Part shown: piece after piece, positions 1,930 through 14,798 of the stretch
Layout: each line of letters opens with the position of its first letter
Position numbering within the stretch: position 1 is the first letter of the stretch
Virus record (IMG/VR): IMGVR_UViG_3300037156_000185
Span: 1-49,862 of that record
Source: a virus
DNA: 49,862 nucleotides
Reading direction: 5' to 3' (one strand)
Position numbers and translations under genes: made by a program
The notes under the pieces: generated by a model
Databases searched by the model: none
What the model was told of the DNA's origin: nothing
What the model saw: the letters and a program-made list of their open reading frames with translations, nothing else

Positions 1930-4269
1930 TCACAAAGCCTTCCGCTGAAAAGAAACTACGCTGCCGCTCGCCTTGATCGGTCTCACGAGCGGCCCGTTTT
2001 TGCCGACCTCTTCTATCATGGATTTCACGTCCGTCAAAATAGCGGTCGAGCAGGTTCCGACCAGCCGTACCGAGCGCATTTTGCCTTCGACCATGTGCCG
2101 GTCGGGGCCAAGCAGCCGAGACGATTTCTTTGAGAATATGCGTTCGGCGGTGCGCTGCCAATCTTCCGGAAATTCGTAACTCTCAGCGATCATAACTTCC
2201 TCGATCAGCAGCAGGAATTGATCCTTGACCATCAGCGCGCCCGCCGGCGCGGCAAGCACCGCGGCCGCGGCGCGGTCAAGATCGGATGTTCCAGCATCCA
2301 CCATGTCAGCCTTGGCGGCGGTCATCGGCGGCGCGACGAAGGGGTTATAGCCGGCAAGGTCTACGGCGAGCAGTTCTCGGGCGAAAGCGCCGATGTTAGC
2401 CGGGCTCGTCATCCACCGCCGCACGGTGCCCCAGAAAATGGCCGATGCCGCCGGACCGTTGGTCAGGATGGCGATGCGCCGGTCCTCGGCGGGCAGCACG
2501 AAGGCGTCAGAATGGTTGGTGGCGATGAAGAATGAAGCGTAAGTGCGCTCGTCCGAATTTCTGACACTCTTACGGTTGATGTGCATCGTGCGGGTGTTGG
2601 GGTCGATCAGCGTCTTTAGGTGCTCGTAGGCGTTGGTGCGTGTCTGCCAGCGCGTCATGGTGCTGTCTGTTTCAGTGGCCTCATCGACGGCGACGATCAG
2701 CGACTCGGTCATCCACTCGTTATATTGCGACTGGCTACCTTTACCGGTCAGGGTGTTGAACTGGATGCGCTTAACATACTTCGAACCGAACAGTATGCTC
2801 ATCACGTCGATCATCGTGCCGCGGCCGGTGCCGAAATCCTTGGCCACCATCACCACAGCCGGGCCTGGGACCTCTGGGTGTTGCAGCTTGTAAGACAGCC
2901 ATTGAATGAAGAACTTCCGTTCAGCCAGATCTGGTAGCAGGCTCTCAATCAACTGCATGCCGATCGTCGCGTCTCCGCCTAGCGGGTGCACCGGTGGACT
3001 GTAGGTGTTTAGATGGAAGGCGGTATCATTGACAAAGATCAGCTTGCCAGCCTGGTCAGGCCGCATCTGCATATCCTTGACCGTCAGTCGCCCAGGGTGC
3101 TCAAGCCACAGATCGGTAAGGTATATTTTTTGCTCGCCGCCAGCCGGGCCGTGACGCACTTCCATGTGGTTTTTCATGTTGTCGCGGAACTGGCGCACGG
3201 TGTTGACCATGAAGCCCTGCTCGGTGTCACAGATCACGGCATCAGACTCAACGTGCACGTAGCGCTTCAGCGCCTTAGCTAAGTTATCGTCGAGCGGCGC
3301 GCGTGGATCAAGGATCAGGTTCTCCGGCTCGGGCGGCACAGCTTCCGGAAAACGCTCGGCGAGCAGCGCCCCCAGCTCCTCCATGCTGACGCTGATATCG
3401 TCCTCGAGCGGGAAGTGGCTAGTATAGGTGCCGTGATCCGAGATGCACACGGTGCCATTGACGAGGCTGACCATGCCCGCCCAGGACCCAGACGTCGGGC
3501 GGAAGCTGTCGACGGTACAGCGCCAGACGTCGTTCGGATTGGCGGCGAGCGCTTCGGCCAGCTCGGCGACGCTCATCTCGCCCTGGTCCTTGACGTTGAA
3601 CAGCATGTCGGGCGTCAGATCGTAGACGTGCGTGTAGCCGCCATCGGTACCGCCAGCGGCGCTGGCGCGCGTCAGGCCGTGGCTTTCGAAAAAGGCGGAG
3701 CAGAAATCCTTGAGCGCTTCGACCTGTTGCAGGGTGATGACCGGCAGGTCCATGTACTGGTGCTCGAGCAGGCTTTCCTCGGGCCACTGGTAGGCGGTGT
3801 TCTCGTCGCGTTGCCCGTAGGCGGCGAACTGGCATCCGGCGCCAAGGATTTCGACGGCGTAGCCTGGATCATCTTCGGTCATCGCGGGCGTTTTGAAATG
3901 CCCGGTGGTGCGCTTGCCGATCTTATCGGATGTTCGGTAGACCCAGAGCTCGCGTGGCGGCCGGCCAACGCGGACGAATAGGCTCTCGTCAATCAGGCCT
4001 TCGTTGACCACCTCGTCGAGCAGATCGTTGAGCAGGGCGCCATCGTCGATGTCCCAATCGAGCGCGATGACGTCACCGCATCTGATGCCGGTATCGAGGA
4101 AGGCGCGGGAGCGCGCCCATTGGCGGCTCTGGATAATCTCGGGCGTGACCTTGAGCGTGCTCCACTCCTTGATCAGGCAAAGCTTGGATTTATTGGCGAG
4201 CGGCGTGAAGCCGTTGTCGTAGAGCTTGAGACGCAAGAGCGTCCGATCCGTGCGCGGGTCTAGCGTCAT
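1930..4269 (-). CDS. Bifunctional DNA primase-polymerase (prim-pol) / SF3-type helicase
   Basis: A 779-residue replication protein. The N-terminal domain (about 1-200) matches bifunctional prim-pol (AEP superfamily): 'GDVIALDWDID' near residues 65-75 carries the catalytic Asp pair, followed by 'YAVEILGAGCQFAAYG'. The C-terminal half (about 400-700) is a D5/DUF5906-like SF3 helicase: P-loop-like 'KDFGTGRGTM' near 480, Walker B 'LIVAVDEATE' near 525, and the sensor-like 'SFFIATNHSDAFVLPAEDRR'. The P-loop has Arg-Gly where Lys-Ser/Thr is usual, which is odd for an active ATPase. It would prime and unwind phage DNA with the DNA polymerase upstream. The 3' neighbour is the endolysin, an unusual pairing of replication and lysis in one operon. 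Confidence 0.85.
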   Translation of the reverse strand: MTLDPRTDRTLLRLKLYDNGFTPLANKSKLCLIKEWSTLKVTPEIIQSRQWARSRAFLDTGIRCGDVIALDWDIDDGALLNDLLDEVVNEGLIDESLFVRVGRPPRELWVYRTSDKIGKRTTGHFKTPAMTEDDPGYAVEILGAGCQFAAYGQRDENTAYQWPEESLLEHQYMDLPVITLQQVEALKDFCSAFFESHGLTRASAAGGTDGGYTHVYDLTPDMLFNVKDQGEMSVAELAEALAANPNDVWRCTVDSFRPTSGSWAGMVSLVNGTVCISDHGTYTSHFPLEDDISVSMEELGALLAERFPEAVPPEPENLILDPRAPLDDNLAKALKRYVHVESDAVICDTEQGFMVNTVRQFRDNMKNHMEVRHGPAGGEQKIYLTDLWLEHPGRLTVKDMQMRPDQAGKLIFVNDTAFHLNTYSPPVHPLGGDATIGMQLIESLLPDLAERKFFIQWLSYKLQHPEVPGPAVVMVAKDFGTGRGTMIDVMSILFGSKYVKRIQFNTLTGKGSQSQYNEWMTESLIVAVDEATETDSTMTRWQTRTNAYEHLKTLIDPNTRTMHINRKSVRNSDERTYASFFIATNHSDAFVLPAEDRRIAILTNGPAASAIFWGTVRRWMTSPANIGAFARELLAVDLAGYNPFVAPPMTAAKADMVDAGTSDLDRAAAAVLAAPAGALMVKDQFLLLIEEVMIAESYEFPEDWQRTAERIFSKKSSRLLGPDRHMVEGKMRSVRLVGTCSTAILTDVKSMIEEVGKNGPLVRPIKASGSVVSFQRKAL

Positions 4270-4502
4270 TGCGCGATCTCAACCGACCGCAGAGACGGCT
4301 CAAAAACTATCGGTTGCGGAAGCACGCTTTGCGCGGCGGCCATATTATGAGCGGTAAAACGTAGCCAACACGGCAGACAACCGCACGCTAGCCGGTCCTG
4401 CCGAACTTTCGCCGGGACCATATCGGCGGAGGCTAGCTGCGCGAGCCGCTGCTCGCCGTGCGCGGGGCAGTACCAGACAATATACACTGGTTCTTCGGTC
4501 AT
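4266..4502 (-). CDS. Small zinc-ribbon-like protein
   Basis: Seventy-eight residues from the ATG at 4502, which overlaps the methyltransferase stop (ATGA). Its own stop overlaps the prim-pol start. A Cys-x2-His pair ('CPAH') and a C-G-C-x2-C cluster ('CGCLPC') could bind one zinc ion. No family is recognised. Its place between methyltransferase and primase suggests a nucleic-acid-related role. Confidence 0.6.
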   Translation of the reverse strand: MTEEPVYIVWYCPAHGEQRLAQLASADMVPAKVRQDRLACGCLPCWLRFTAHNMAAAQSVLPQPIVFEPSLRSVEIAQ

Positions 4503-5020
4503 ATCGTTCGCCCATAAAACTGCGGTGCTTCGTTGCCCGGCATGCCGAACAGATGCCAAGCGCAGTTGTCCTTACCGGTCATGGTTGACTCCGGGATCCA
4601 CTTTACCCGCCCAACGGAAACGATTTTACGTAGGCGTGGCAAATACGGCGTAGCCTGGCGAGTGTGCACCCAGTCGGCATCGAACAGCAACCAGGTCGGA
4701 TGCTGATCAGACAGCGCCACGATCAGTTCGTGCAACAAAGGGCGAGCCCATGGCGGGTTGGTGATGAAGCAATCGATGTTGCCGATCAGCCTGGTGCGAG
4801 CATCCTGCCGATCGATATCGGCGCGACCCGGTTCGATATCCCATGCTCGAGCGCAGTAATGCCCGGCAGCCGTCAGATGGTCGATCAGCGCGCCATCGCC
4901 GGCGCACGGCTCACAAAACCGTGTGCCAGGCTTGAGATGTGCCAAGAGCGGCTGCACGGCTAGCGCCGGAGTCGGATAGAAATCGCGCTCGATCCGCGCG
5001 AAGTCGCTGCGCTTGCCCAT
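4499..5020 (-). CDS. Class I SAM-dependent DNA methyltransferase (N6-adenine type)
   Basis: A 173-residue compact methyltransferase. It starts with the phage-typical 'RDFYPTPALAVQPLL', followed by SAM-binding motif I 'FCEPCAGDGALIDHL' (about 35-50), 'ARAWDIEPG' (acidic residue binding the ribose) and catalytic motif IV 'NPPW' (about 90). There is no target-recognition domain of size, as in short phage orphan enzymes, and no restriction partner nearby. Likely role: modifying phage DNA to evade host restriction; target sequence unknown. It sits in the replication operon between polymerase and prim-pol. Confidence 0.82.
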   Translation of the reverse strand: MGKRSDFARIERDFYPTPALAVQPLLAHLKPGTRFCEPCAGDGALIDHLTAAGHYCARAWDIEPGRADIDRQDARTRLIGNIDCFITNPPWARPLLHELIVALSDQHPTWLLFDADWVHTRQATPYLPRLRKIVSVGRVKWIPESTMTGKDNCAWHLFGMPGNEAPQFYGRTI

Positions 5021-10821: not shown

Positions 10822-10980
10822 ATGCGCAATAAATACCCGGGCATCTGCTACCAATGCAACAAGCCGGTCCTCCCTGATCAAGGCCATTTCGAACGGTACG
10901 CCGGGGGTTGGCGGGTACAGCACGTCGCCTGCGCCATCATTGCTCGGCAGAAAAGGAATGCCGATGCCCAAAAAGCGTGA
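10822..10980 (+). CDS. Small zinc-finger protein
   Basis: Fifty-two residues with GAAAGGGA upstream of the ATG. 'GICYQCNKPV' (Cys-x2-Cys) and 'RVQHVACAII' (His-x3-Cys) form a plausible single C2HC zinc site, a common layout in small phage proteins. First gene of the rightward operon. Its last 17 bases overlap the start of the HNH/VRR-NUC hybrid gene. Confidence 0.7.
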   Translation: MRNKYPGICYQCNKPVLPDQGHFERYAGGWRVQHVACAIIARQKRNADAQKA

Positions 10981-11587
10981 ACTGGAGCGGACGCTCGAGG
11001 AGAGGTGCGTCGCCAAGGTCGAAGCGATCGGCGGCAAGGCGCTAAAGCTCAAGCTCGACGGCGTGCTCATCTCAAAGATGCGCGCTAACGAGCTGCTGCT
11101 ACCCGCTAGACGTGTTCGCTATTGGCTGGATTACGACCCGCTTACCGGCGTGCTAACGCGAAGGCACAACTCACATAGGTGCGCGGCCGGGGCCATCTAC
11201 GGACGCGCTAACGGTAACGGCTACCTAAAAAGCACTTTGGAAGGGCTCACTTTTTACGCTCACCGCGTAGCTTGGGCCCACGCTCACGGGTGTTGGCCGG
11301 AATTTGCCATCGACCACGTAGACGGCAATCGCGCAAATAACCGGCTATCAAATCTACGCGTAGCCACGTGGTCGCAGAATAACCACCACAAAAAAGCAAT
11401 TCGGGCGGGTCTAAAAGGTGCTTTCACAGCGCATACTCTGGCCTCTGGAGAGCTTATGTGGCGGTCGATCATCCGTATCGGCGGCATAAACACTCACCTC
11501 GGCGTATTCACTACCGAACAAGCCGCACACGAAGAATATTGTCTAGCCGCTGCAAGGTACTTTGGCGTCTTCGCGAGGTCCGAATGA
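10964..11587 (+). CDS. HNH homing endonuclease fused to a truncated VRR-NUC N-terminus
   Basis: A 207-residue protein from ATG 10964 (AGG 7 bases upstream). Residues 1-34 ('KKRELERTLEERCVAKVEAI', 'GGKALKLKLDGV') parallel the N-terminus of the VRR-NUC protein encoded next. At about 35 the sequence switches to an HNH_3-type endonuclease: 'YDPLTGVLTRR', 'GYLKSTLEGLTFYAHRVAW', catalytic 'AIDHVDGNRANNRLSNLR'. The C-terminal 60 residues resemble an AP2-like DNA-binding domain ('GVFTTEQAAHEEYCLAAARYFG'). It ends overlapping the VRR-NUC start (ATGA). The fusion suggests a mobile HNH gene inserted in a VRR-NUC gene whose intact copy now follows. Codon use after the fusion point is AT-richer. Confidence 0.82.
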   Translation: MPKKRELERTLEERCVAKVEAIGGKALKLKLDGVLISKMRANELLLPARRVRYWLDYDPLTGVLTRRHNSHRCAAGAIYGRANGNGYLKSTLEGLTFYAHRVAWAHAHGCWPEFAIDHVDGNRANNRLSNLRVATWSQNNHHKKAIRAGLKGAFTAHTLASGELMWRSIIRIGGINTHLGVFTTEQAAHEEYCLAAARYFGVFARSE

Positions 11588-11874
11588 AGCAGCGCGAGTT
11601 AGAGCGTTCCATCGAAGATCGGTGCGTGCAGAAAATAGAAGCGCTCGGAGGTAAGGCGTTTAAATTGGTGCTCGCGGGGTCACGAGGATTTCCAGACAGA
11701 ACAGTGCTGCTTCCCGACGGACGCTGCTGGTTTTGCGAGTTTAAAAGACCCCAAACCGGCGTCGTGTCGGCGCAACAACGTAAGTTCAAGTTCATGCTCA
11801 ACCTGCTCGGCTTCCATGTGTACCATGTGGACAACGACGCCGAGTTCGATTCAATCCTGGAGGAATGGCGATGA
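11584..11874 (+). CDS. VRR-NUC domain nuclease
   Basis: A 96-residue stand-alone VRR-NUC (PD-(D/E)XK fold): 'EDRCVQKIEALGGKAFKL', 'GFPDRTVLLPDGRCWFCEFKRP' (catalytic PD...ExK), 'QRKFKFMLNLLGFHVYHVDN'. Phages often pair it with a SNF2-like helicase, as here; together they are thought to process branched DNA. The start overlaps the HNH stop, so translation is coupled. A second, divergent copy of its first 30 codons sits at the start of the HNH gene. Confidence 0.88.
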   Translation: MKQRELERSIEDRCVQKIEALGGKAFKLVLAGSRGFPDRTVLLPDGRCWFCEFKRPQTGVVSAQQRKFKFMLNLLGFHVYHVDNDAEFDSILEEWR

Positions 11875-12317: not shown

Positions 12318-14798
12318 ATGACCGGCCGCCCCTACAGCGCTCTCGACGAACTGCAGCAAAAAGCCATCGATGACCTTTATGAACACGATGAGCGCTTAGC
12401 GCTGCTCGAGACTGGCTTTGGCAAGACCGTGGCCGGTCTCACCGCCGGCGAGGAGCTGCGCGCGGCTGGCGTGATCAAACGCCCGCTAGTGTTCGCGCCG
12501 CTGCGCGTCGCCCAGAACACCTGGCCCCAGGAACGCGCCGAGTGGGCGCACCTCAACGACGTACCGATGGTCGAGTGGGGCGGCGAGCCGGCCAACTGGG
12601 CCCCAAGCCTCTGGCGCGACAGCCGGCAGCTCTACGGCCGCCGCCGGCATGCCGAGCAGCGCCTACCCAAAATCGAAGATGTTCGAAAAAGGCGGGAGAT
12701 CGAACACACGCTGGAGCACCTGTTAAAGAACGAAAGGGAAGTTAACAGGTCGATTCAAAAGACCATGCCTCCGGAGGCTTGGCACGTCACCAGTTTCGAG
12801 AACATCGAATGGCTGACCGATCTCTACGCCCCCGGCGAGTCGCCGTTCGATCTATGGATCGTCGATGAGACCGGGCGGGTCGCACGCAATCCGAAATCAC
12901 CGCGCTACAAGGCGCTGCGCAAGCACATGCCCCACGCCAAGATCCGGTGGGGGTTCAACGCCACGCCGGCGCCGGAGGGGGCTGAGGACCTTTTCGGCCA
13001 AGTGCAGTTGGTCGCCGGCAGGCGTCTATGGGGCTCTTCATTTTATAGCTGGCGGCAGAAGTTTTTCACGCCCGCGGATTATCAAGGCTACACCTGGCGT
13101 TTGCAGCTGGGCGCCTTTGACCTGCTGATGAACGACCTCAACAGCGTCGCCTTCCGCGTGCCTGCCGAGAAGCTGGCCTATCAGAAGAACATCACACACC
13201 GGCAGATCATGGTTGACCTGCCGCCAGTGGCGCGCGGCGCATACGATGAGATGGAAAAGACCATGGCCGTTGAGCTCGCGGCGCTCGGCCTACCCGACGG
13301 CGATCCGATCGTCGCGATGAGCGAGGCCGCGGCGTCGACCAAGCTCCGGCAGATAGTTCAAGGGTATTTGTACGAGGTAGACGACAAGGGCCGGCGCACT
13401 GTGCATATCCTGCACGATGAAAAGACCCAGGCGATCGCTGAGCTGATCGATTCGATGGGCCGGGAACCGCTGCTCATCGCATACGCCTTCGATCAGGATC
13501 TGGATAATCTGCGCAAGATCTGGAAAGGCATTCCATACCTTGGGCAGGGCGTGTCGTCAGCCGTGGCTAGCGATCACATCGCCAAGTGGAACAAGCGCGA
13601 GCTGCCGGTGCTGGCGATCCACCCGAATTGCCTCCATCCAGACACTTTAGTCTTGACTGAAGAAGCCGGATGGAAGAAGCTCATCGACGTTCGCGCCGAT
13701 GAGCGCGTGTTCGATGGGATTGAGTTCGTCACCCATAGCGGCTGCCAGATGTCCGGGGTTCGCCCGGTTATCGAGCGCTTCGGAATTGTGATGACGCCCG
13801 ACCACCGAGTCCTCGTCAACGACGAGTGGATAAAGGCCGAAGATGTACGAGATATTGGAAGTGTTCGCCGAGCGGCGCGTTACCACTACGCAGGCGCTGA
13901 AGGTCGCGTCAGTGCGCTGTTTGAATTGCGGGAAAGTGGTGGAGATGCTCCTTCAGAACGCGGTAAGGGCCAACAAAACCAAACGATCTTACTGCCCGTT
14001 TTGCATAAAAGAGACCTTCCATTATATGACCAACTCGCGCCCGTATCGCACCTGGCGCGGCCTGCTGGACCGGATCGAGAACCCAGAAAACCCGAGCTAC
14101 AAGCACTACGGCGGGCGTGGAATCACGGTCGATCCAAGCTGGCAACGGTTTCAGAATTTCTGGGCCGACATGCAGGAAGGTTATTCGGACGACCTGACAA
14201 TCGAGCGCATCAATGTGAACGGCAATTACTGCAAGGAGAACTGCTGCTGGGCTACGAATATGGAGCAGCAGGCCAACAAGCGCAACAATCGGATCGTGGA
14301 ATACAAGGGCCAGCAGATGCACTTCTCCGAATTTTGTCGCGTCGCGGACGTGACGAAAGGTGGGATCAGGTACTATCTCAACCGGTACGGAACCGGAGAC
14401 GCGGCGATGGCAGCGTACTTGAAATCGACCTACCCGAGATGGCGAGTCAGCCGGAAGGGCTACAAGTTTCGCAAAAAGTCTACGACCTCGTCGACTGCGG
14501 TCCCCGCCACCAGTTCGTAGTGCGAAATGACGCTGGTGAGGCGTTCATCGTCCATAACTCGGCCAGCCATGGCCTGAACCTGCAGTATGGCGGCCACCAC
14601 ATCGCCTGGCTGGCCCTACCCTGGAGCCTAGATGCCTTCAAGCAGAGTTGTGAAAGAATCGATCGGCGCGGTCAGACCAAGGCTTGCTACAGTCATCACA
14701 TCCTGGCGCGCGACACCATCGATCAGAAGGTGTCCGATGTGCTGGTGCAAAAGAACGCCGATCAGAACCTAATAATCCACGCGATCAGGAGCCTATGA
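12318..14798 (+). CDS. SNF2-like helicase/ATPase interrupted by an intein
   Basis: An 826-codon frame. Helicase residues 1-437 and 748-826 make a 516-residue SNF2-type protein: Walker A 'LLETGFGKTVA' (about 30-40), motif II 'LWIVDETGR' (about 180), motif III 'GFNATPAP', then the second RecA domain with 'EPLLIAYAFDQDLDNL'. Motif V 'HPN / SASHGLNLQYGG' is split exactly by a 310-residue insert that begins with Cys438 and ends with His-Asn before Ser748. Motif VI is 'QSCERIDRRGQT'. Splicing would be needed for activity, since motif V is broken. It follows VRR-NUC, its usual phage partner. Much of the insert, about 510-710, looks like out-of-frame translation of the HNH gene it contains. Confidence 0.87.
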   Translation: MTGRPYSALDELQQKAIDDLYEHDERLALLETGFGKTVAGLTAGEELRAAGVIKRPLVFAPLRVAQNTWPQERAEWAHLNDVPMVEWGGEPANWAPSLWRDSRQLYGRRRHAEQRLPKIEDVRKRREIEHTLEHLLKNEREVNRSIQKTMPPEAWHVTSFENIEWLTDLYAPGESPFDLWIVDETGRVARNPKSPRYKALRKHMPHAKIRWGFNATPAPEGAEDLFGQVQLVAGRRLWGSSFYSWRQKFFTPADYQGYTWRLQLGAFDLLMNDLNSVAFRVPAEKLAYQKNITHRQIMVDLPPVARGAYDEMEKTMAVELAALGLPDGDPIVAMSEAAASTKLRQIVQGYLYEVDDKGRRTVHILHDEKTQAIAELIDSMGREPLLIAYAFDQDLDNLRKIWKGIPYLGQGVSSAVASDHIAKWNKRELPVLAIHPNCLHPDTLVLTEEAGWKKLIDVRADERVFDGIEFVTHSGCQMSGVRPVIERFGIVMTPDHRVLVNDEWIKAEDVRDIGSVRRAARYHYAGAEGRVSALFELRESGGDAPSERGKGQQNQTILLPVLHKRDLPLYDQLAPVSHLARPAGPDREPRKPELQALRRAWNHGRSKLATVSEFLGRHAGRLFGRPDNRAHQCERQLLQGELLLGYEYGAAGQQAQQSDRGIQGPADALLRILSRRGRDERWDQVLSQPVRNRRRGDGSVLEIDLPEMASQPEGLQVSQKVYDLVDCGPRHQFVVRNDAGEAFIVHNSASHGLNLQYGGHHIAWLALPWSLDAFKQSCERIDRRGQTKACYSHHILARDTIDQKVSDVLVQKNADQNLIIHAIRSL
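13629..14558 (+). other. Intein in helicase motif V
   Basis: The insert has the splicing blocks of an intein. Block A begins with Cys1 ('CLHPDTLVLTEEAGWKKLIDV'-like). Block B is 'FGIVMTPDHRVLVN' with the T-x-x-H signature. Block F is 'KVYDLVDCGPRHQFVV' and block G is 'AFIVHN' followed by Ser+1 of the helicase. Length is 310 residues, but only about 70 N-terminal and 40 C-terminal residues look like splicing domain. The middle is Arg/Gln/Gly-rich with no endonuclease motifs in this frame. Insertion in a conserved ATPase motif is typical of inteins. Known chemistry: Cys1 and Asn-end/Ser+1 support standard protein splicing. Confidence 0.85.
13912..14520 (+). CDS. HNH homing endonuclease nested out of frame inside the intein
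   Basis: Read one base off the helicase/intein frame, this gives 202 residues from GTG 13912, with GAAGG 8 bases upstream; an ATG at 13843 in the same frame lacks a comparable signal. It starts with a zinc ribbon ('VRCLNCGK' ... 'YCPFC'), then the common phage HNH pattern: 'RTWRGLLDRIENPENPSYKHYGGRGI', 'WQRFQNFWADM', 'LTIERINVNGNYCKENCCWA', 'EQQANKRNN'. A C-terminal 'EYKGQQMHFSEFCRVADVTKGGI' looks like a NUMOD/HTH DNA-binding segment. The last 20 residues overlap intein block F and are probably not conserved. It is translated independently if the GTG is used; it would make the intein mobile. Confidence 0.85.
   Translation: MRCLNCGKVVEMLLQNAVRANKTKRSYCPFCIKETFHYMTNSRPYRTWRGLLDRIENPENPSYKHYGGRGITVDPSWQRFQNFWADMQEGYSDDLTIERINVNGNYCKENCCWATNMEQQANKRNNRIVEYKGQQMHFSEFCRVADVTKGGIRYYLNRYGTGDAAMAAYLKSTYPRWRVSRKGYKFRKKSTTSSTAVPATSS

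Follow-up and report, generated by a model that had tools for sequence, protein, structure and literature searches.

The DNA analysed here (the window) is a stretch of 49,862 nucleotides, positions 1–49,862 of the IMG/VR virus record IMGVR_UViG_3300037156_000185. On its plus strand lies a phage helicase ORF that holds a putative intein, and the DNA of the intein also contains, in the +1 frame relative to the helicase, a gene for an HNH protein. The features of the locus, with the evidence for each, are as follows:

12318–14798, plus strand: helicase precursor, DEAD/SNF2-type phage helicase, 826 aa with the intein included (PHROG_62 DNA helicase, E 2.3e-86)
13629–14558, plus strand: putative class-1 intein, 310 aa, Cys1 to His-Asn with Ser+1, splitting the helicase directly before SASHGL (motifs; alignment with the intein-free helicase L005)
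13629–13928, plus strand: predicted N-terminal splicing domain (Hint), intein residues 1–100, with block B TPDH at 13794–13805 (AlphaFold, Foldseek)
13832–13836, plus strand: Shine-Dalgarno-like AAAGG, 6 nt upstream of ATG 13843 and within the intein W-I-K-A codons (−3.2 kcal/mol, which is weak; clade mean −6.9)
13843–14520, plus strand: nested HNH endonuclease gene, 225 aa, +1 relative to the helicase, stop TAG at 14518–14520 (PHROG match, L004, AlphaFold)
13912–13914, plus strand: GTG, the start given in the initial annotation, not conserved (Ala codon in L004; model strands upstream)
13918–14004, plus strand: zinc-ribbon cysteines C26, C29, C51 and C54 of the HNH protein ((nearly) invariant across nested HNH proteins)
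13938–14462, plus strand: dual-coded linker, intein residues 104–278, predicted to be disordered; open, sequence not conserved (pLDDT mostly <50; identity as the HNH frame forces)
14107–14277, plus strand: HNH core, YGGRGITV ... LTIERINVNGNYCKENCCWATNMEQQANKR (HNH protein alignment A8; PHROG HNH matches)
14466–14558, plus strand: C-terminal splicing motifs, intein residues 280–310, VYDLVDCGPRHQFVV...FIVHN (pLDDT ~95; conserved in 34–36 inteins)

The helicase frame reads as a single ORF with zero stops across the insert. Cys1 is encoded at 13629 and the terminal His-Asn at 14553–14558, followed by Ser, and together with the block B TxxH the window thus has every class-1 element (Cys1, TxxH, terminal His-Asn and Cys, Ser or Thr at +1), as the initial annotation had described. 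Among 34 aligned inteins, residues C1, T56, H59, H309 and N310 are invariant. In the AlphaFold model (34 related inteins), pLDDT is about 90–97 for residues 1–100 and about 95 for residues 280–310, while it falls below 50 nearly throughout residues 104–278, the stretch that also encodes the HNH protein; the two outer segments are confidently predicted to form a Hint fold. The best Foldseek matches of the model are solved inteins (probability 1.0), with E-values above 0.001, which the disorder of more than half of the chain probably explains. In the suggested profile search, residues 1–22 match the intein N-terminal profile TIGR01445 at 14.4 bits, under the cut-off of 24.5, which is a limit of the profile and not a biological feature. 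The intein-free helicase L005, 52% identical over the best segment, aligns continuously over the junction (HP/SAGHGL), and this alignment places the insert, in frame, at a site that is conserved in the extein. As known for its family, the intein would be expected to splice autocatalytically.

One base off inside the intein, as had been claimed, the 225-aa ORF with its zinc-ribbon cysteines matches the PHROG HNH families phrog_3377 (E 4.6e-42) and phrog_374 (E 9.6e-42). Its core is conserved as ERID..NC.W...N.R, with Arg (ERID) in place of the canonical first His, a replacement also found in free-standing HNH relatives (e.g., L007, L009, and L015). The mean pLDDT of the AlphaFold model is 86.9, and its strands are confident from residue 2 onwards. 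The proposed search against HNH families was positive in PHROGs, but none of the Pfam HNH models matches the nested protein; likewise, no significant Foldseek match of the model to solved HNH structures and no PDB sequence match were found. Because the curated intein and Pfam HNH profiles stay below their cut-offs, intein and HNH gene are identified here by their motifs, relatives, PHROG matches, and structure models. From what is known of the family, the nested protein would be expected to cleave DNA and to support homing.

A second HNH gene is located at 10940–11874 (PF13392, E 1.5e-15). Its first ~25 codons resemble the beginning of the ORF that follows (MKQRELERSIEDRCVQKIEALGGKAFKL), apparently a VRR-NUC nuclease gene. 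A free-standing HNH gene inserting there possibly duplicated part of the start of that ORF.

The nested gene very probably starts at ATG 13843 and not at GTG 13912, which had been proposed together with a GAAGG signal. That GTG was rejected: it is an Ala codon in the homologue L004, while codon 71 of the intein, read in the HNH frame, is a start codon in all 26 relatives at the helicase site (ATG in 24/26, GTG in 2/26). The Shine-Dalgarno energy at the codon-71 start averages −6.9 kcal/mol, whereas 568 other ATGs average −2.4 kcal/mol (P 8e-13), and in the window AAAGG at 13832–13836 would serve. The confident model strands from HNH residue 2 also support this start. In this clade the signal sits in the codons of the intein W-V-E-A motif, and the conserved start position may be partly a consequence of the intein codons; in other clades, starts recur at positions 30, 48, 62, or 67. 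Starting at ATG 13843, the stretch read in two frames is 675 bases long, so the dual reading noted earlier is upheld while its length of ~600 bases is not.

Ribosomes might instead enter the HNH frame by frameshifting, making an extein-intein-HNH fusion and no free-standing endonuclease. Such a route would suit the overlapping frames and the offset, which is usually +1, and phages do use programmed frameshifts. However, a stop in the HNH frame lies just ahead of the start (the ORF opens at 13834 in the window, and directly at the ATG in L008 and L014), and the start and its Shine-Dalgarno signal are conserved at one place per clade, which makes frameshifting highly unlikely.

How the two frames evolve can be seen by comparison with L004 (IMGVR_UViG_3300002307_002699), which has the same precursor architecture and length, no indels, and 20.6% nucleotide differences, with zero stops in the intein frame and in the HNH frame. 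Counted by helicase codon position, the differences number 83/35/29 in the overlap and 45/31/161 in the N-extein; those in the overlap are concentrated on HNH third positions. Within the overlap, the intein frame has an amino-acid identity of 0.510, close to that simulated from the HNH frame alone (0.494 ± 0.016), and no stop is seen in that frame where 2.8 are expected. Conservation of the HNH protein through third-position substitutions holds for this pair and over 192 pairs, while extra amino-acid constraint in the intein frame gave no clear sign in 5 of 7 pairs and was marginal in 2. In the codon-substitution comparison that had been suggested, HNH third positions absorb the changes and the intein frame is kept free of stops. 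The middle, described earlier as a junk-like linker, is predicted to be disordered, and its identity is only what the HNH frame forces.

Two surveys were used to ask how common the architecture is. In the intein-first survey, viral and genome contigs were scanned with the intein N-terminal block, named phages and loci found via the HNH protein were added, and the loci were classified by HMM. This yielded 105 complete inteins with an out-of-frame nested HNH gene (89 in +1 and 16 in +2) and 15 mini-inteins of 109–183 aa. An HNH in the intein's own frame was found in none of the 105 HNH-bearing inteins; the survey was seeded with nested members, and “never in frame” holds for this intein family. 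Nine more N-block matches without a C-block in the same ORF stand outside the counted classes; of those inspected, L031 and L059 are cut off where the contig stops, several belong to counted loci as a second intein-like block, and L038 is broken. In the HNH-first survey, contigs were scanned with the HNH protein and the best 80 loci classified: 22/80 lie inside an ORF with both intein blocks, all in +1, the remaining 58/80 have no overlapping ORF at all, and again 0/80 have the HNH in the intein's frame. The initial annotation had presented a single case; the architecture is real, but it is not a one-off and, as the 105 nested loci show, a large intein family has it as a rule.

Where the host protein was tested, it was an SNF2/DEAD helicase or a family A DNA polymerase, and there are several distinct insertion sites. 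Most loci are metagenomic, and the named isolates agree with them. Sources include APSE-1, Sodalis SO-1, Salmonella Ent1, E. coli Pubbukkers, Caulobacter GB2A, and Shewanella SFCi1, as well as contigs of Paenibacillus, Alicyclobacillus, Clostridium homopropionicum, and others; the loci on bacterial contigs are presumably prophages. An 87% tblastn match to Caulobacter phages was discarded, as it joined polymerase and helicase pieces; the Caulobacter polymerase itself carries a nested intein (L001). The helicase ORF at L035 (1793–5215) has a LAGLIDADG_3 domain (residues 240–304) in addition to an intein with a nested HNH.

Selection was assessed by shuffling the synonymous codons of each HNH gene, with protein and codon usage fixed. 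For the window this predicts 5.8 stops in the intein frame, with a probability of 0.002 for none. Over the nested loci, a mean of 7.4 stops is expected per locus, and zero were observed in 105/105; the demand that both blocks share an ORF biases the set towards open cases, though among complete loci with an N-block only L038 was found broken. Collapsed to 88 DNA clusters at 80% identity, the loci should hold 597 stops in the intein frame, where 0 were seen; the third frame has on average 13.2 stops per locus. The overlapping frame is open for 22/22 HNH genes inside inteins and 0/58 free-standing relatives, so the second frame is open only where an intein needs it. Both contrasts indicate selection on the intein frame for openness and not for sequence. 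L038 (88–2452) is alone among complete loci in having its intein ORF broken, by an apparent frame shift in the overlap that is either real decay or a sequencing error.

These counts bear on two other explanations. To our knowledge, the endonuclease is in frame in the HEN-containing inteins reported to date, and a simple first guess is that intein and HNH were once a single in-frame protein whose middle was moved out of frame by compensating frameshifts, whether by mutation or by sequencing error. However, the offset is found in more than 100 loci from different contigs and isolates, with none in frame, the HNH start and Shine-Dalgarno signal are conserved, and the openness is far above chance. 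Sequence errors cannot recur in this way over phage isolates and distinct contigs, nor do the homologues lack an open host frame through the insert (L004, for example, and all 105 nested loci); by the comparative data the frame slip appears already refuted, and we give it practically no weight.

The insert might also be a self-splicing RNA intron with an HNH ORF, the open helicase frame being accidental. Phage group I introns often carry HNH ORFs, and the record of Sodalis SO-1 (NC_013600, gp38/gp39; L128, 2094–5282) does annotate its polymerase with a “type I self-splicing intron”. The motifs there are those of an intein, however, and no Rfam intron match was obtained for the window or for seven loci including SO-1, on which ground a group I or II intron was rejected. 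In addition, the window has the intein motifs and the Hint model, and an RNA intron needs no open frame, whereas 105/105 are open against 7.4 stops expected. An intron is thus extremely improbable.

In a tree of 170 HNH proteins, the nested genes fall into a few large groups, apart from the free-standing ones, with 3 changes between the nested and free states, at least 2 of them forced by well-supported branches; the +2 cases lie nearly all in one group. Distances between inteins and between their HNH proteins are correlated (Mantel rho 0.56, 0/999 permutations), so the two for the most part travel together. Loss can be seen in L060 and L061 (~4001–4936), near-identical polymerase genes from one metagenome, of which one has a 312-aa intein with the nest and the other a 135-aa intein; in the latter the nested HNH has been deleted cleanly, in the intein frame. 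Here the endonuclease was lost and the intein retained, as the homing cycle predicts. This polymerase gene also holds a second, upstream mini-intein. Two mini-inteins at the helicase site, L049 and L055, retain the HNH start at intein residue 71 and the first HNH-like codons (MFEII and MLELL), apparently remnants after HNH deletion.

Such mini-inteins without the nest, two of them with remnants of the HNH start, could mean that the intein still splices while the nested HNH is a decaying passenger without homing activity, and the Arg at the first His of the motif would fit this too. But the third-position substitutions in the window/L004 comparison and over 192 pairs show a conserved HNH protein, and its fold is predicted with confidence and with invariant residues, so we regard a passenger as unlikely.

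In all likelihood, then, the window carries a mobile intein in which one stretch of DNA encodes splicing in one frame and the endonuclease in another. This was the core of the initial annotation, and it is well supported by the 105/105 open loci, the HNH-frame substitutions, the Hint and HNH models, L005, and the natural HNH deletions. Ribosomes starting at 12318 would read the helicase frame throughout and make the 826-aa precursor, in which the Hint domain (intein residues 1–100 and 280–310) would fold around a floppy linker of ~170 residues; the intein would then excise itself in cis, joining the helicase halves before SASHGL. Ribosomes initiating internally at ATG 13843, with a binding site within the intein codons, would translate the +1 frame into a free-standing zinc-ribbon HNH endonuclease. 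This enzyme would cut intein-free helicase alleles, and repair would copy the whole element in. In one frame selection preserves the amino acids of the HNH protein; in the other it preserves only freedom from stops.

As a joint proposition, we consider it quite likely that in a whole, widespread class of phage DNA polymerase and helicase inteins the homing endonuclease is an overlapping gene in another frame, with its ribosome-binding site and start within the splicing-domain codons; that the linker is arbitrary and kept only stop-free; that the arrangement arose at least twice, in +1 and +2; that loss occurs by intein-frame deletion; and that splicing and mobility are translated separately and can also be regulated and lost independently.

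Inteins are described as one polypeptide for splicing and homing; if our reading is true, dual coding keeps these two functions apart in a large phage class. A single stretch of DNA would be fully constrained in one frame and in the other only required to be open, providing a clean natural system for overlapping genes. It would also explain inteins of ~300 aa recorded without an endonuclease, such as Salmonella Ent1 gp37, and correct annotations. Intein surveys restricted to the host frame would overlook these endonucleases. Why the endonuclease is uncoupled would become testable, with independent dosage, freedom from inter-domain folding constraint, and easy loss as candidate reasons.

Among known systems, the window resembles canonical inteins of the PI-SceI type in that Hint is interrupted by endonuclease DNA before the last 30–40 residues, which fits the conserved HEN insertion site in inteins discussed in PMC6801210. 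It differs in that the endonuclease lies outside the precursor, being encoded by an overlapping gene that has a start of its own; it is not part of the splicing polypeptide. The nearest description among openly licensed PMC texts is that of ShiLan, where an HNH is encoded out of frame in a methylase insert that lacks intein splicing motifs and is predicted to stay in the methylase (PMC11855218). The two cases share an HNH in the other frame of a host-open insertion, no detected intron, and a mobile distribution, but the window has complete class-1 motifs, a predicted Hint fold, and ~100 relatives; inteins with a nested out-of-frame HNH are not mentioned in the sections of that paper considered here. 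With its motifs complete, the window does not belong with host-frame inserts of the ShiLan type.

In fractured genes, reportedly described by Dassa et al. in 2009, split inteins flank a free-standing endonuclease gene. There, as in the window, splicing and endonuclease are separate proteins at one phage locus. The host ORF of the window, however, is unbroken (12318–14798) and not divided into two ORFs with the endonuclease between them, its two frames are superimposed, and the intein would splice in cis. A 2025 preprint by Gosselin, Arsenault, and Gogarten is said to report actinobacteriophage inteins of “non-canonical architecture” and is possibly relevant. The novelty of the out-of-frame nested intein endonuclease is provisional, the literature compared being openly licensed PMC texts.

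The same architecture is present in sequenced isolates, namely APSE-1 P45/P46, Sodalis SO-1 gp38/gp39, and Salmonella vB_SenS-Ent1 gp37 (L128–L130), though their inteins are in the DNA polymerase and that of the window is in the helicase. In SO-1, Ent1, and Pubbukkers the HNH is in +2, compared with +1 in the window. The records treat the arrangement in different ways: SO-1 as an intron, APSE-1 as an overlapping HNH gene, and Ent1 as an intein annotated without the HNH. The out-of-frame HNH of the Ent1 polymerase intein (L130, 3501–7213) is unannotated, and this phage also has a helicase intein whose precursor includes, by its annotation, a LAGLIDADG endonuclease, so that both designs occur in one phage. 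Because SO-1 gp39 and APSE-1 P46 are annotated as overlapping genes, the DNA arrangement is already in the databases.
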